Shown: in pieces, positions 2,788-9,045 of the stretch
How positions within the stretch are numbered: position 1 is the stretch's first letter
Layout of the letters: each line of letters starts with the position of its first letter
From: Halorussus halophilus
Lineage (GTDB): Archaea; Halobacteriota; Halobacteria; Halobacteriales; Haladaptataceae
Length of the DNA: 64,000 nucleotides
Direction of reading: 5' to 3'
NCBI RefSeq assembly: GCF_008831545.1
Contig: NZ_CP044523.1
Span: 124,001 to 188,000 of the forward strand
Translations under genes and position numbers: made by a program
The notes under the pieces: generated by a model
The model's database searches: none
What the model was told of the DNA's origin: nothing
Seen by the model: the letters and a program-made list of their open reading frames with translations, nothing else

Positions 2788-3735
2788 ATGGGGAATATGA
2801 CACACGAACGAACAGACGTGACTGACACGGTACCGAACGTAGACGACGAGGACCGCCGAAATTTCTTGAAAATTCTGGGTGTCACGGGAAGCGTCGGTGC
2901 GGCGAGCGAGTTCGCGCTGGACGACCTCCGCGGCGTCGTCGATTCGAACTCGGCCTCGACGGAAGAACTGGCGACGATGGGCGAGGCGATTCGGGCCGAC
3001 CTCTCCGGAACGCTCGACGCCGAGCGACTGTCGAGCGCGCTCACCGGAATCGAGTCCGGCATCGCGCGCCTGCCGGAACTTCGGGCCGAGGGATTCCCCG
3101 CGGAACCGACCGACGCCTACGCCGAGGTGACTGCGCCAGCGTGGGACGCCTACGACCACCTCGCAGACGTCGGTCTCTTCGAAGCGGCCGAGCACAACCT
3201 GCCGGAGTTCACGCCAGAACACATTCGCGCGACGACGACCGAACTCGTCCAGTCGTCGCCGCTCGCGACGGCGCTGGCCGACGCGGGATTCGACAAACAG
3301 GAGCGAACCGAACTCGTCGTCGGCGCGGCGACCAACGACGAGCGGCTGGCAGAGTGGGTTTCGACGGAGGCGCTTCCGGCGAATCCGGACGACTACGACG
3401 TCGAGGACGTGGCTCCGCTCCAACAGCGCGCCGTCGGCGGCGCACTGTTGTGGATAGACGAACTCGACCAGCACCTCTGGCAGAAAGAAGTCCTCATCAC
3501 CGACGAGATGTTCGACGACGGGATTCGACACGCGAGGGCGATGCTCGGCGGCGTCTCGCTCGTCGTGCGAGCAGTACGCGACGTGGCCGCCGAGAACGAG
3601 CGTCCAGCGAGCGAACTTGCGGCGGGGGTCACCGCTGGCTCTGCCGTGGCGATTCTCGGCCAAGAAGACATCGCGGCCGACCTGTTCAGAATCGACGACG
3701 AGATGCGCGCACCGCGGGGAGGTGACCCAACATGA
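2788..3735 (+). CDS. Helical protein with Tat-like N-terminus, partner of PQQ dehydrogenase
   Basis: I do not recognise a named family. The 315-residue protein has an N-terminal DRRNFLKILGVTG segment close to the twin-arginine consensus (S/T-R-R-x-F-L-K) followed by a short, weakly hydrophobic stretch, then an acidic sequence that looks all-helical, with many Ala, Glu and Leu. No catalytic motif is evident. Two starts are possible, ATG 2788 and ATG 2797. Its stop codon overlaps the start of the PQQ dehydrogenase (ATGA at 3732-3735), so translation is coupled. A reasonable inference is that it anchors or carries the dehydrogenase out through Tat. A Tat-exported structural subunit, as in other dehydrogenases, is the closest analogy. 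Confidence 0.8.
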   Translation: MGNMTHERTDVTDTVPNVDDEDRRNFLKILGVTGSVGAASEFALDDLRGVVDSNSASTEELATMGEAIRADLSGTLDAERLSSALTGIESGIARLPELRAEGFPAEPTDAYAEVTAPAWDAYDHLADVGLFEAAEHNLPEFTPEHIRATTTELVQSSPLATALADAGFDKQERTELVVGAATNDERLAEWVSTEALPANPDDYDVEDVAPLQQRAVGGALLWIDELDQHLWQKEVLITDEMFDDGIRHARAMLGGVSLVVRAVRDVAAENERPASELAAGVTAGSAVAILGQEDIAADLFRIDDEMRAPRGGDPT

Positions 3736-5441
3736 GTTCTGACTATCCACACGCACGAGTCCACTCGACGGAAGACGGCCAGACTATCGAGTACACCATC
3801 GACGGCCCGCAGACGATTCGCCAAGACGGCCAGCAGATTCCGCGGCTGAACGTCACGGAGGAGATGCTACTGGAGTCTGGCGACGACGCCAGAAGTTGGC
3901 TCATGTACGGCGGGGCCTACGACCAACAGCGGTTCACGACCGCCGACGAAATCACGCCGGAGAACGTCTCGAACCTCTCGCTGGAGTACATCGTGGAGAC
4001 CGAAGAGGAGGGAACGCTGGAGGGAACGCCGGTCGTGGTACCGTCGGACCCGCCCATCATGTACCAGACGAACGGGCCGGACGTGTTGCGTGCAATCAAC
4101 GCCCGGACTGGTGACGTCATCTGGACGTACCGCTACGCACGGGACCAACAGGGACCTGACGAAGCCTCGGCAGTCTGGTGTTGTGGGTCGAACAACCGCG
4201 GGGTGGCGGTGCTGGGCGACAGCCTCTACATGACGACGCTCGACGCGAACCTCGTCGCTATCGACCGCTACACCGGTGAACAGCAGTGGCTGTACGACTC
4301 CGCGCCCACTGGACAGGGCTACTCGGCGACGTGGGCACCCATCGTCTACGACGGGAGCATCCTCAACGGGAGCGCGGGCGGGGAGTACGGCATTCGCGGA
4401 TTCATCGAGTCGGTAGACACCACGACCGGCACGCGCGAGTGGCGCACGTGGATGACGCCCGAAGCACAGTGGGTCGGCGACTCGTGGCGTCGCGGGGCCG
4501 CGCCGAACTGGATGTCGATTACGGTCGATGCCGACTCCGACACGCTGTACGCCAACATCGGCAATCCGGGACCGGACGTGAACGGCATCGTCCGACCGGG
4601 ACCCAACGTCTACTCGGACTCGGTCGTGGCGCTCGACACGGAGTCAGGCGATTTGGAGTGGTACTTCCAAGAGGTACCACACGACTGGTGGGACTACGAC
4701 GCCTCGACGCCGCCGGTGCTGTTCGACGCCGAGATATACGGCGAGAATCAGCGGGTCGTCACGCACCCCGGGAAAGACGGCTGGAACTACCTGCTCGACG
4801 CCGGAGACGGCAAACTGTACGAGCGAAGCCAAGAGTTCTGCCAGCACCTCAACACGTGGTATCTACCCCAGCAGACCTACGACGACTCGCCGTGGGTGAT
4901 GCCGTCGGCCGACGGCGGGTCGGAGTGGAACCCGGCCTCCTACAGCCGGGTGACGGGCAACCTCCACGTGAAGGCGATGAACTACCCGAGCAAGTTCCAG
5001 TGGGATGCAGACCCCGAGTGGAACTTCCCTGCCCAGTACCTCGGCGGCGGGTTCACGGTGTATCCGGCGATGGACGACCCCGGTCCGGCACCCGACGCGT
5101 GGAACGGCAAAGTCGGACTGTTCTCGGCGGTGGACCCGGTGACCGGCGAAGTTGTCTGGCAGGACGAGTACGACGAACTCTCGATGGGTGGGTCGATGAG
5201 TACGACGACCGGTCTGACTTTCACCGGCAACGGGTCGGGCGAGTTCATCGCCTACGACTCCGAGAGCGGTGAACGCCTCTGGCAACACCAGTTCGACGCC
5301 TCGGTCAACGCCTCGCCGATGAGTTGGTACGACCCCGGAACGGGCAAGCAGTACGTCGCAGTGCAGGCCGGTGGCGGCGGGCTTCGCTCTCCCCGGAACG
5401 GCAACACGGTCGGGGTGTTCTCGCTCCGGGCCGGGAACTGA
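3732..5441 (+). CDS. PQQ-dependent alcohol dehydrogenase-like beta-propeller protein
   Basis: Quinoprotein dehydrogenase of 569 residues with repeated propeller tryptophan-docking sequences such as INARTGDVIWTYR, IDRYTGEQQWLY, LDTESGDLEWYF and YDSESGERLWQHQ. Family landmarks are visible: EGTP (about 97), adjacent cysteines WCCG (150-151, the vicinal disulfide next to PQQ), GGEYG (Glu 218) and IGNPGP (Asn 277) as metal ligands, and PHDWWDYD with the catalytic Asp at 321. Asp 323, two residues later, is the position that marks lanthanide-dependent enzymes (XoxF, PedH) as opposed to calcium ones. It would oxidise alcohols or aldehydes, passing electrons to an unknown acceptor. No signal peptide or cytochrome domain is present, and no pqq synthesis gene is in the window. 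The start overlaps the upstream stop. Confidence 0.9.
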   Translation: MSSDYPHARVHSTEDGQTIEYTIDGPQTIRQDGQQIPRLNVTEEMLLESGDDARSWLMYGGAYDQQRFTTADEITPENVSNLSLEYIVETEEEGTLEGTPVVVPSDPPIMYQTNGPDVLRAINARTGDVIWTYRYARDQQGPDEASAVWCCGSNNRGVAVLGDSLYMTTLDANLVAIDRYTGEQQWLYDSAPTGQGYSATWAPIVYDGSILNGSAGGEYGIRGFIESVDTTTGTREWRTWMTPEAQWVGDSWRRGAAPNWMSITVDADSDTLYANIGNPGPDVNGIVRPGPNVYSDSVVALDTESGDLEWYFQEVPHDWWDYDASTPPVLFDAEIYGENQRVVTHPGKDGWNYLLDAGDGKLYERSQEFCQHLNTWYLPQQTYDDSPWVMPSADGGSEWNPASYSRVTGNLHVKAMNYPSKFQWDADPEWNFPAQYLGGGFTVYPAMDDPGPAPDAWNGKVGLFSAVDPVTGEVVWQDEYDELSMGGSMSTTTGLTFTGNGSGEFIAYDSESGERLWQHQFDASVNASPMSWYDPGTGKQYVAVQAGGGGLRSPRNGNTVGVFSLRAGN

Positions 5442-5586: not shown

Positions 5587-6006
5587 TCACGTCAAGATAG
5601 CGAACTCGACGTGAACCACGGTCTGATTGAACTCGATGTAGTAACCAGACGGGTAGTTGCTGGAATTTCTATCTTTGGGGAAGTAGCCCGGCAACCTCGC
5701 GCGGTCTTCTTTCATCTTCTCAACCTTGCTTTCCGGGACAGTGACGACTGATCTCCCTGACTTGTTGACGGCCTTCCGAACCGCCTTTTTTATATACTTG
5801 TTTGCCTGCACTCGGCTATCAGTGTACGCAACAACGGTAGCGTTTGGTGGTGCTTCTGAAACTACTTCTGCCGTTATTTCACCATCTCCGGTACTGGGGT
5901 TAGATTCACTTCCATTCGCAGGCGACTTGCTTAGCTGACTTGTCATACACCCTGGCATAGGTGCAATGATAACCAAAAAAACAACAGCTATGGAGGACTT
6001 TTTCAT
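5587..6006 (-). CDS. Small lipoprotein, AT-rich
   Basis: The 139-residue protein begins MKKSSIAVVFLVIIAPMPGC, a bacterial-style lipoprotein signal with a lipobox ending in Cys 20, followed by a Ser/Pro/Gly/Asn-rich linker and a small C-terminal domain (about 50-139) with no motif I know. Unlike most haloarchaeal lipoproteins it has no twin-arginine pair, so export would be by Sec. Base and codon use is clearly AT-richer than the flanking genes, as is the adjacent protease, suggesting joint acquisition. A TATA-like ATTTTTATC lies about 20-27 bases before the start, so it may have its own promoter even though it lies 39 bases after the protease gene. Confidence 0.72.
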   Translation of the reverse strand: MKKSSIAVVFLVIIAPMPGCMTSQLSKSPANGSESNPSTGDGEITAEVVSEAPPNATVVAYTDSRVQANKYIKKAVRKAVNKSGRSVVTVPESKVEKMKEDRARLPGYFPKDRNSSNYPSGYYIEFNQTVVHVEFAILT

Positions 6007-6045: not shown

Positions 6046-7194
6046 TTACACCCTTACGTCTAAGACTTCTTCGGCCCACGCCATAATATCTCCTCTGGCT
6101 TCATCGAAGGTACCATCCCCGTCATCGTCGATAGATGCGTGATTGATTCCAGCGATGAGCGCGAGGTTGTCTGTTGTAATGTGGAAAAATGGGCCTCCAG
6201 AATCACCTCCTTTCACATTGTGGTCGATTTTAACTCGTTCTGGTGAGTTTGTTTTGACACCGAGGATTTTCCCAGTATTTCTTCCTGTTGTTCTCCCTTG
6301 TTGATAAAGGGACTCCCCGTTTGAATGCATGTCTTTAAGTTTGTCACGGCTGAGTACCCCAGAAACCTGCCATCCGTACGAACCATTTTTATCTGCTATA
6401 TTGTAGGAATTGTCAGGTCCGCTACTGACAACTGTTCCGAGGTCGCCGTTCCCTTTCTGGGTATATTGACGACTCTCGCCGATTTTGTTTGAGCCAATTA
6501 AAGGATTTTTTGGCTGATGAACATTATTGCCTGCTGTCCTATTGATACAGTGTCCAGCTGTAACCCATACTTGGGAGTTGTCTTGTAGTGCGGTCGCTGG
6601 AGTGCCTAAGGTACAACAGCACTCGTTACTGAGTCCCATCTGAACACCGCTCGGAACTGGTCTGTAATTCGAATTGAAGGTCGCTTGTTCTTTAGCACGA
6701 GATTTGTGAACCGTGACTTTCAGGTCAGTCGTTTTGTACTCTTTCCCATTTGACGTCACCGAACCGTCAGTACGTGATGGTACTGCTTCCTTAACCTTCT
6801 CGAACGAAATATTCGGTGTACTCTCTGTTCCATCTGCGTGATGAACCTCGTAATAGTGGACCGCGATTCCTAACTCGGAGTCGCTTGACGAAACCTCTAC
6901 CTCGATAAAGGGTTCGGATGTGAACCGTCTACTGATTCTTGTCGCAGCGTTGTGAACTGCTTCAGTTCGTGCCCACTCATCTCGCGGAATAGTATAGAAC
7001 CTCGGCTCTCGTTCCGGAACTGCATTGTTTGAAACAACTTCTTTGTGATTAGTGTGGACGAGTCCGAGAAGTCGGGGAACTTCTTTTTCAGGATTAGAGG
7101 TAACTGCCGCAAGTGCGTCTTTTGAGATGTATTCTAGTGCGGCACCACTCAGACCGAGGCCCGCCAACGTGTTCAGAAATCACCGCCTTCCCAT
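6046..7194 (-). pseudogene. Chymotrypsin-like serine protease with TGA inside its Tat signal
   Basis: From ATG 7194 the reading is M-G-R-R-stop-F-L-N-T-L-A-G-L-G-L-S, a twin-arginine signal (RRxFL plus hydrophobic stretch) in which the x codon is TGA at 7182-7180. After the stop the frame is open to 6046. The mature part keeps a complete S1-type triad: His in TAGHC, Asp in GDLG and Ser in GDSGGP (codons 215, 251 and 332 counted from the ATG), plus a CCC cluster before the His. About 150 residues of propeptide-like sequence precede the protease domain. An internal TTG at codon 10 could start translation but would remove the twin arginines. The simplest reading is a recent nonsense mutation (for example CGA to TGA). 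Readthrough, a sequencing error or cytoplasmic initiation are alternatives. The gene is AT-rich relative to the chromosome. Confidence 0.8.
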
Positions 7195-7363: not shown

Positions 7364-7568
7364 TTCAAATCCCTTCGTAACCGCTTCGCTCCTCACCTAC
7401 GTTCGTCGCAGAAGCGGGCTGGAAGGGATTTGAACCACCTGAAGACGCTTCCCCGCCTCCGGCGAGACTGCCTCTTCCGTAGTTCAAATCTTCCAGCGTT
7501 CGAAATTCACGACTCGCGGAATTGGCGAGCGTACGAGACGCTCGCCGTGTTGCTCGTCGTAGAATGTA
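7364..7568. repeat. Fragments of the tRNA-Lys 3' end in both orientations
   Basis: CGGGCTGGAAGGGATTTGAACC at 7415-7436 is an exact 22-base copy of the 3' end of the adjacent tRNA-Lys (7569-7590); allowing one inserted A the match runs on through CCTGA. A 13-base inverted copy of the T-arm (TTCAAATCCCTTC) lies at 7364-7376, and a further imperfect copy (TTCAAATCTTCCAG) near 7484. Such partial copies beside a tRNA are the expected scar of site-specific integration and imprecise loss. No integrase gene is present nearby. Confidence 0.6.
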
Positions 7569-7642
<74 letters not shown>

Positions 7643-7666
7643 TCGAATCAGTTTTGCGCGCCACGA

Positions 7667-7676
7667 GGGTTAAACC
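7667..7676. promoter_or_regulatory. TATA-like box between tRNA-Lys and the peptidase gene
   Basis: GGGTTAAACC sits 25-34 bases before the mature tRNA 5' end on the minus strand, the right distance for its TATA box. The neighbouring TTTACTATC (7677-7685) might serve the divergent peptidase gene. Confidence 0.5.
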
Positions 7677-7734
7677 TTTACTATCTCGCGCGTCCAGCGC
7701 AACCTTTACCGCACCGCCGTCGGTCGAAACGACC

Positions 7735-9045
7735 ATGAACGACTTCGCTGACTACGACGCTGACTTGCGGGCGTTCGTCGAAGACCTGCTTTGCTTCGAC
7801 ACGACCGGCGGCGAGGAGGCACCCGCAAACGAGTGGTTTCGCGAGCAGTTGGACGCGATGGGCTTCGAGACCTACGCGTGGACTGCGGATGCAGACGAAC
7901 TCTCCAGCCACCGCTCGTTCCCAGACGACCCCGCGGAAATCGCGGTCGAAAATCGCCCCTCGGTCGGTGGCGTCCTCGAATTCGGGGACCCCGACGCCGG
8001 ACCGACGCTCGTGCTGAACGGCCACGTAGACGTGGTGCCAGTCGCCCGCGAGTCGTGGTCGAGCGACCCCTTCGAACCGGTCTGGCGCGAAAGCGACGAC
8101 CAGAACGACGACGGTGACGAGAACAACGACGACACCGAACCCACTCTCACCGCTCGCGGTGCGGCCGACATGAAGTCCGGTCTCGCGACCTGCGTCTTCG
8201 CGGCGAAACACCTCCACGACTCCGACCACGACCTCGACGGCCGACTCGTGGTCGAGAGCGTCGTCGGCGAGGAAGCGGGCGGCATCGGCGCGGCCGCGGC
8301 CGCCCAGTCGAACCCCTATCCCTTCGAGCGCGACGCCGCGATTATCGCGGAACCGACCGAACTGCGACCTATCGTCGCCTCCGAGGGAAGCCTGATGAAG
8401 CGACTCAAGCTTACGGGGCGCTCCGCCCACGCCGCGACTCGCTGGCGGGGCGTGGACGTACTACCGTACTTCGAACAGATACGCCGCGAGTTCGCGTCCC
8501 TCGAATCGGAGCGCGGCGAGTCGGTGAACCACCCGCTCTACGAGCGGTTTCCCGTGCCGTGGCCTGTCGTGGTCGGCCGCGTCGAAGCCGGAAGTTGGGC
8601 CTCCTCGGTGCCTGCCGAACTCACCGCGGAGTTACGCATCGGGGTCGCGCCGGGCGAGACAGTAGTCGAAGTCGAAGCGCAGTTCGAAGAGCGACTCGCG
8701 CAACTCGTCGCCGACGACGAGTGGCTCGCGGAGCATCCACCGGAGTTCGAACGCTTCTCGATTCAGTTCGAAGCCTCAGAAATCGACACAGACGAACCAG
8801 TCGTCGGCGCGCTCCAGCGGGCGATGGAGGCGAACGACCTCGCCGACACAGACCCCAGAGGAGCGACCTACGGTGCGGACGCGCGCCACTACATCGAGGC
8901 TGGAATTCCAACTGTGATGTTCGGCCCCGGTAGCATCGAGCAGGCGCACTTCCCTGACGAGACGATTACGTGGTCCGAGGTCCTGACCGCTGGGGAAGTG
9001 TTGAGTGGTGCGGCGAGAGAATTCTTGAGCGAGTCCTCGACCTAA
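7735..9045 (+). CDS. M20 family metallopeptidase / ArgE-DapE-type deacylase
   Basis: Zinc-dependent amidohydrolase of 436 residues. LVLNGHVDVVPV carries the first metal His-x-Asp, GAADMKSG the bridging Asp, and VVGEEAGG the catalytic Glu-Glu. The dimerisation or lid domain follows (about 220-340), and a late GADARHY and FGPGS-IEQAH complete the active site. Members hydrolyse N-acyl amino acids or small peptides (acetylornithine deacetylase, succinyl-diaminopimelate desuccinylase, carboxypeptidase G2); the exact substrate cannot be told. A low-complexity acidic insert (DDQNDDGDENNDD) is a halophilic surface loop. ATG 7735 is chosen because upstream in-frame codons run toward the tRNA and promoter. 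It reads divergently from tRNA-Lys. Confidence 0.9.
   Translation: MNDFADYDADLRAFVEDLLCFDTTGGEEAPANEWFREQLDAMGFETYAWTADADELSSHRSFPDDPAEIAVENRPSVGGVLEFGDPDAGPTLVLNGHVDVVPVARESWSSDPFEPVWRESDDQNDDGDENNDDTEPTLTARGAADMKSGLATCVFAAKHLHDSDHDLDGRLVVESVVGEEAGGIGAAAAAQSNPYPFERDAAIIAEPTELRPIVASEGSLMKRLKLTGRSAHAATRWRGVDVLPYFEQIRREFASLESERGESVNHPLYERFPVPWPVVVGRVEAGSWASSVPAELTAELRIGVAPGETVVEVEAQFEERLAQLVADDEWLAEHPPEFERFSIQFEASEIDTDEPVVGALQRAMEANDLADTDPRGATYGADARHYIEAGIPTVMFGPGSIEQAHFPDETITWSEVLTAGEVLSGAAREFLSESST

Follow-up and report, generated by a model that had tools for sequence, protein, structure and literature searches.

A haloarchaeal quinoprotein with a complete XoxF/PedH-type metal-ligand set and a conserved helical partner in Halorussus

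In the open-access literature covered here, every lanthanide enzyme with experimental proof is a bacterial PQQ alcohol dehydrogenase, examples being PedH/ExaF, a lanthanide-dependent PQQ alcohol dehydrogenase (6zcw), and XoxF, the lanthanide methanol dehydrogenase (4mae, 6oc5, 6dam). Three residues, Asp301, Gly171 and Thr259, have been tied to lanthanide use in a review (PMC11845868). In Archaea, 21 PQQ dehydrogenases of marine Thaumarchaeota (HMT), four of them with a DYD motif, were described in a 2020 report that contained no experiments (PMC7300363) and that is repeated in the same review (PMC11845868); blue copper was suggested as their electron acceptor, all of them are without the vicinal cysteine pair, and their hosts encode PQQ synthase (PMC7300363). 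A D-x-D motif is also present in the membrane glucose dehydrogenase (mGDH) of Escherichia coli, which is able to form complexes with Ca, Mg, Zn and Sr, and the motif has been treated as an assumed indicator (PMC11996626).

The locus described here lies in the window, a 64,000-nucleotide stretch of a Halorussus genome of 4.45 Mb, and comprises the gene of an eight-bladed quinoprotein and a conserved partner gene directly upstream (Table 1). The reading frame of the quinoprotein and its PHDWWDYD motif, both given in a preliminary description of this DNA, are genuine, and the full length of the frame was confirmed. Membership of the quinoprotein superfamily is indicated by PF01011 (E=8e-61; 206.9 bits against a cut-off of 26.7), while TIGR03075, the model for methanol/ethanol PQQ dehydrogenases, gave 361.7 bits, under its curated cut-off of 480. 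The AF2 model, which is without PQQ or metal, has a pLDDT of 88.8, and its top 27 fold matches are all PQQ dehydrogenases, the best being PedH (Z 47.2, rmsd 1.7 over 504 residues, 30% identity), with XoxF at Z 45.5; in a sequence search of the PDB, quinohemoprotein ADHs came first and PedH and XoxF next. Two other assignments were rejected. The membrane glucose dehydrogenase model TIGR03074 scored 159.4 bits against a cut-off of 832.65, and E218 and N278 are kept, unlike in Gcd; the acido-empty-quinoprotein group A (TIGR04528), whose members are likewise quinoprotein-like in a host without PQQ synthesis, scored 281 bits against 650, and differs in that the active-site residues are intact in the haloarchaeal protein. 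The protein is probably a PQQ alcohol dehydrogenase.

Table 1. Features of the quinoprotein locus, in positions of the window
Feature	Position	Strand	Basis
Conserved partner, 315 aa, all-helical, no known family	2788..3735	+	Co-occurrence, profile searches, AF2
RRNFLK twin-arginine (Tat) motif of partner	2854..2871	+	Sequence; TIGR01409/PF10518 match 9 and 8 of 27 members; hydrophobic stretch follows
ATGA overlap, partner stop/enzyme start	3732..3735	+	Sequence
PQQ-dehydrogenase-type quinoprotein, 569 aa, without signal peptide	3732..5441	+	PF01011, AF2 fold, hydropathy
C150-C151, vicinal cysteine pair over PQQ	4179..4184	+	Invariant in haloarchaeal groups 1 and 2; XoxF, MxaF, PedH, ADH-IIB columns
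R156, column of PQQ-pocket arginine	4197..4199	+	Alignment
G217-E218, Gly as in XoxF/PedH (MxaF Ala) and metal-ligand Glu	4380..4385	+	Alignment; Gly171/Asp301 role from PMC11845868
N278, metal-ligand Asn	4563..4565	+	Alignment
D321, predicted catalytic base	4692..4694	+	Alignment
D323, additional Asp of lanthanide-type enzymes	4698..4700	+	Alignment
K348, active-site column (Arg in MxaF/XoxF/PedH, Lys in ADH-IIB/mGDH)	4773..4775	+	Alignment

In a MAFFT alignment with XoxF (4mae, 6oc5 and the S. meliloti protein), PedH (6zcw), two MxaF of mox operons, ADH-IIB (1kv9), E. coli Gcd and one sorbose-dehydrogenase-like protein, E218, N278, D321 and D323 occupy the four metal-ligand columns of XoxF and PedH. 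The preliminary description had named D321, D323, E218 and W149-C150-C151-G152, all of which are borne out by the sequence, and had proposed N277 as the Asn ligand, which has to be corrected to N278; D323 falls, as it had supposed, in the lanthanide-ligand column. At this position, for which it had given Ala or Ser in calcium enzymes, MxaF has Ala (L129 and L132), 1flg Ser (WDFS) and ADH-IIB Thr. Membership of MxaF was rejected on this column. At position 281, all haloarchaeal members have Pro, as does PedH, where XoxF has the Thr known as Thr259. Haloarchaeal groups 1 and 2 (42 sequences) show no variation in the four ligands, in G217, R156, T200, W260 and K348, or in the Cys pair. Since an earlier set of relatives had been assembled in part by means of a pattern that includes the motif, conservation of D-x-D was counted instead in an unbiased set of 61 haloarchaeal homologues collected without it, and the motif is present in every one of them, 60 by pattern and the 61st (L156, DWWDRD) on inspection, so that D323 is not a chance occurrence. 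Of these 61 copies, 44 (groups 1 and 2) have the Cys pair, which groups 3 and 4 have lost. Four Halorussus orthologues (L005, L008, L009, L012) read HGWWDWD, with Gly for Asp at 318, three residues before the catalytic Asp.

On the tree, the haloarchaeal proteins form one clade with 100/100 support, made up of four groups. Tree placement, a check proposed in the preliminary description, puts the Halorussus protein in neither the XoxF nor the PedH clade: the haloarchaeal clade stands apart from an XoxF/MxaF clade that also has 100/100 support, and the PedE/PedH group is recovered at 100/100 without haloarchaea. The closest bacterial group is a clade with the motif HDVWDLD (Burkholderiales, Rokubacteria, Gemmatimonadota and Azospirillum; 35-38%), which joins with a support of 94/62, the long branch of E. 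coli mGDH falling beside it, and this signal-peptide-bearing clade is the probable sister of the haloarchaeal one. Its members share the full ligand set and the vicinal Cys with the haloarchaeal proteins, and differ in having their own signal peptides and no partner in nine genomes and one plasmid; in Caballeronia, the copy is adjoined by a c-type cytochrome gene. At two Gemmatimonadota loci, an XoxF-like gene (TPHDAWDYDG; L076:11545-13497 and L081:11224-13071) lies about 3 kb from the HDVWDLD quinoprotein. The family occurs in 44 of 243 sampled Halobacteriales genomes and in 13 of 18 from Halorussus. In one Halorussus genome, the orthologue (L014, G015:C3:679628-681324) is split into two overlapping frames, either as a pseudogene or through a sequencing error, and a contig labelled Klebsiella pneumoniae (a MAG; L125) carries a divergent quinoprotein of this group, probably a binning error.

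Compared with PedH/ExaF, the Halorussus protein shares the eight-bladed fold, the E/N/D/D site, the vicinal Cys, the Gly before the Glu and the Pro at 281, and differs in its separate clade, in Lys348 for Arg, in lacking a signal peptide of its own, in its dedicated partner and in a host without PQQ synthesis. With XoxF it has in common the fold, the four metal ligands and the vicinal Cys, as opposed to an identity of 27-29%, a separate clade and Pro281 for Thr; no xoxG cytochrome or xoxJ was recognised among the adjacent genes of the window, by Pfam scan or by reading. The preliminary description took the second Asp as the mark of lanthanide-dependent enzymes. This is upheld to the extent that D323 lies in the lanthanide column, with the other ligands and the Cys pair in place and PedH and XoxF as the best fold matches; as a diagnosis it is not borne out, the Halorussus protein lying in neither of their clades. 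D-x-D is the commonest state across the quinoprotein family; it is present in E. coli mGDH, where the alignment shows the equivalents of E218 and N278 to be absent, and in L176-L187, twelve distant homologues (520-1212 aa) that belong to the same phylum but to other families, and that retain D-x-D, Asn278 and Trp260 but no longer have R156, E218 or the Cys pair. The motif was accordingly rejected as proof of lanthanide use. On the tree, loss of D323 is confined to the MxaF and ADH-II rows (two changes), and D323 is probably ancestral; therefore the case for lanthanides rests on the full ligand set and not on the motif.

The partner gene is a new finding that goes beyond the preliminary description. 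Of the 61 enzyme copies, 59 have a homologue of it immediately upstream, with all four groups represented, and the partner model and the enzyme model find the identical 44 of 243 genomes, with none discordant; by genus, the pairing extends over 15 of 77 genera (Fisher p 2.8e-16, a value that ignores shared descent). The pairing of the genes is thus obligate in this sample, the functional link between their products is very probably obligate too, and the ATGA overlap suggests that the two may be translationally coupled. No Pfam or NCBIfam family other than the Tat signal was matched by the partner, and its AF2 model (pLDDT 89.2, all-helical) found no convincing match in the PDB (best VIA-align Z 6.5; no Foldseek E under 0.001), which does not by itself make the fold new. 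It could consequently not be assigned to any known subunit. The partner is absent from the nine bacterial genomes and one plasmid that carry enzyme relatives. Beyond the pair, neighbouring genes belong to recurrent families, mostly over a few loci, in which no metabolic link was recognised, and a promoter and terminator scan was uninformative, its consensus being bacterial and the host archaeal. Elsewhere in the window, 6046-7167 (-) encodes a trypsin-like GDSGGP protein with no Pfam match, which adjoins a small lipoprotein-like ORF at 5587-6006 (-), and a tRNA-Lys (TTT) lies at 7569-7642 (-), where the overlapping ORF 7365-7736 (-) is probably spurious.

The haloarchaeal enzymes, unlike their bacterial relatives, have no hydrophobic signal at the N-terminus: their maximum 16-residue hydropathy is below 0.6, as opposed to more than 1.1 in nearly all bacterial proteins. 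Partners with RRxFLK have a hydrophobic stretch of 1.12-1.66, and those without it reach -0.46 to 0.62. With a Tat signal on the partner and none on the enzyme, it is likely that the enzyme hitchhikes through the Tat pathway on its partner in the Halorussus lineage. Among the rows sampled for the tree, the Tat-less state of the partner arises a single time, within group 2, with a further occurrence in L152 and L174. In the majority of group 2 pairs, enzyme and partner alike lack an export signal (L066, L095, L062, L055, L050, L049, L061, L069 and other group 2 loci), and a cytoplasmic complex is therefore possible in most lineages of this group. We know of no quinoprotein dehydrogenase of this type that works inside the cell.

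The search for PQQ synthesis covered PqqB, C, D and E. PqqC turned up neither in 59 relatives, apart from one partial match (19 bits; cut-off 240), nor in 17 named haloarchaeal carriers; the same model was positive in five bacterial records (S. meliloti pSymB, Azospirillum, Caballeronia, Paraburkholderia and Limnobacter). PqqB, D and E gave only matches below cut-off, of which the PqqE-like one (137.7 bits against 381) is probably an ordinary radical SAM relative. Synthesis of PQQ by the host was rejected on these results, and at the cut-offs used it follows that PQQ is scavenged or that the cofactor is not PQQ. The preliminary description would have abandoned its reading if the lack of any PQQ source went together with activity only with calcium; the first half of this is what the genes PqqB to PqqE indicate.

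From these observations we infer a mechanism in which the product of the gene at 3732-5441 would be the catalytic subunit of a PQQ-dependent dehydrogenase that acts in haloarchaea on alcohols (or sugar alcohols). One metal ion would be held against PQQ by E218, N278, D321 and D323, as in XoxF and PedH, D321 would take the substrate proton, and hydride would pass to PQQ; glycerol and the short alcohols of brines are guesses at the substrates. The enzyme would work only with its co-encoded helical partner, which would carry it, already folded, through the Tat pathway in the Halorussus lineage, and, as no synthesis is encoded in the genome, PQQ would be acquired from the environment. The site would probably be able to use light lanthanides and perhaps calcium too. 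Electrons would leave to a blue-copper protein or to the quinone pool, the former being favoured by a cupredoxin-fused paralogue that the same genome encodes. In this second quinoprotein (L032:6548-8845; G000:C1 near 2,220,547-2,222,844), a cupredoxin domain (PF00127, 25.3 bits) whose copper ligands seem to be H/C/H/M is fused before the propeller, the same partner gene lies upstream, the Cys pair is missing and the Glu ligand is replaced by Asp; the cupredoxin is suggested to be a built-in electron acceptor. A Tat-hitchhiking, PQQ-scavenging dehydrogenase complex, plausibly lanthanide-capable, is the best explanation of the whole, with about an even chance of being right.

The enzyme has about an even chance of being able to use lanthanides. 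Against the explanation preferred here, D-x-D may be inherited, a PQQ source is missing from the genome, Pro281 stands in the column of the XoxF Thr, Lys348 replaces the Arg of XoxF and PedH, and export signals are wanting in most group 2 pairs. A true PQQ dehydrogenase working in vivo with Ca2+ (or Mg2+), with D323 inherited as in mGDH, would agree with the motif and metals of the E. coli enzyme, with the confinement of D323 loss to the MxaF and ADH-II branches and with a K348 shared with ADH-IIB and mGDH. It is a serious if unlikely alternative, since E218, N278 and G217 make up the full XoxF/PedH set, unlike in mGDH, and the calcium enzymes compared (MxaF, ADH-IIB and 1flg) all lack the Asp. 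More improbable is an 'empty' quinoprotein that has kept the propeller for another role and binds no PQQ. The failure of PqqB, C, D and E to reach cut-off, the weak match to TIGR04528 and the loss of the Cys pair in groups 3 and 4 all fit such a protein, but the invariance of the Cys pair, R156, T200, W260 and every metal ligand in the 42 sequences of groups 1 and 2 would be unexpected for an empty site, and E. coli uses external PQQ with its glucose dehydrogenase.

The partner might instead be a cofactor-loading chaperone, or merely a co-transcribed regulator, and not a subunit, which we consider doubtful. Its helical model without an informative PDB match and the missing Tat signal in most group 2 pairs are consistent with this, whereas pairing without exception in 15 genera and in all four enzyme groups, together with overlapping ORFs, favours a lasting physical partner; a dedicated chaperone is still compatible with these data. 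Going beyond the dehydrogenase complex preferred here, a haloarchaeal complex that actually uses lanthanides, with a catalytic subunit similar to XoxF and PedH, scavenged PQQ and an obligatory Tat-exporting subunit of a new family, and that is intracellular in a lineage including Natrialba, Natrinema and Halomarina, would be quite unlikely.

The preliminary description had considered rare-earth-dependent oxidation to be new in an archaeon. The 2020 report on marine Thaumarchaeota by Aylward and Santoro had already placed DYD quinoproteins in Archaea and partly anticipates the claim, though those proteins lack the Cys pair and were described without experiments. A search of open-access literature, with subscription journals outside it, found no report of haloarchaeal PQQ or lanthanide enzymes or of the partner, and as far as can be seen, no archaeal quinoprotein had been described with all the XoxF/PedH ligands and the Cys pair together before those of haloarchaeal groups 1 and 2. 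Since PQQ synthesis is lacking, either PQQ-making bacteria of the brines supply the cofactor by cross-feeding or the cofactor idea is wrong. The obligate partner offers a handle on archaeal export and cofactor loading of a quinoprotein that has no signal of its own, and because the genus can be cultivated and has every ligand of the lanthanide type, rare-earth use in Archaea would become directly testable.
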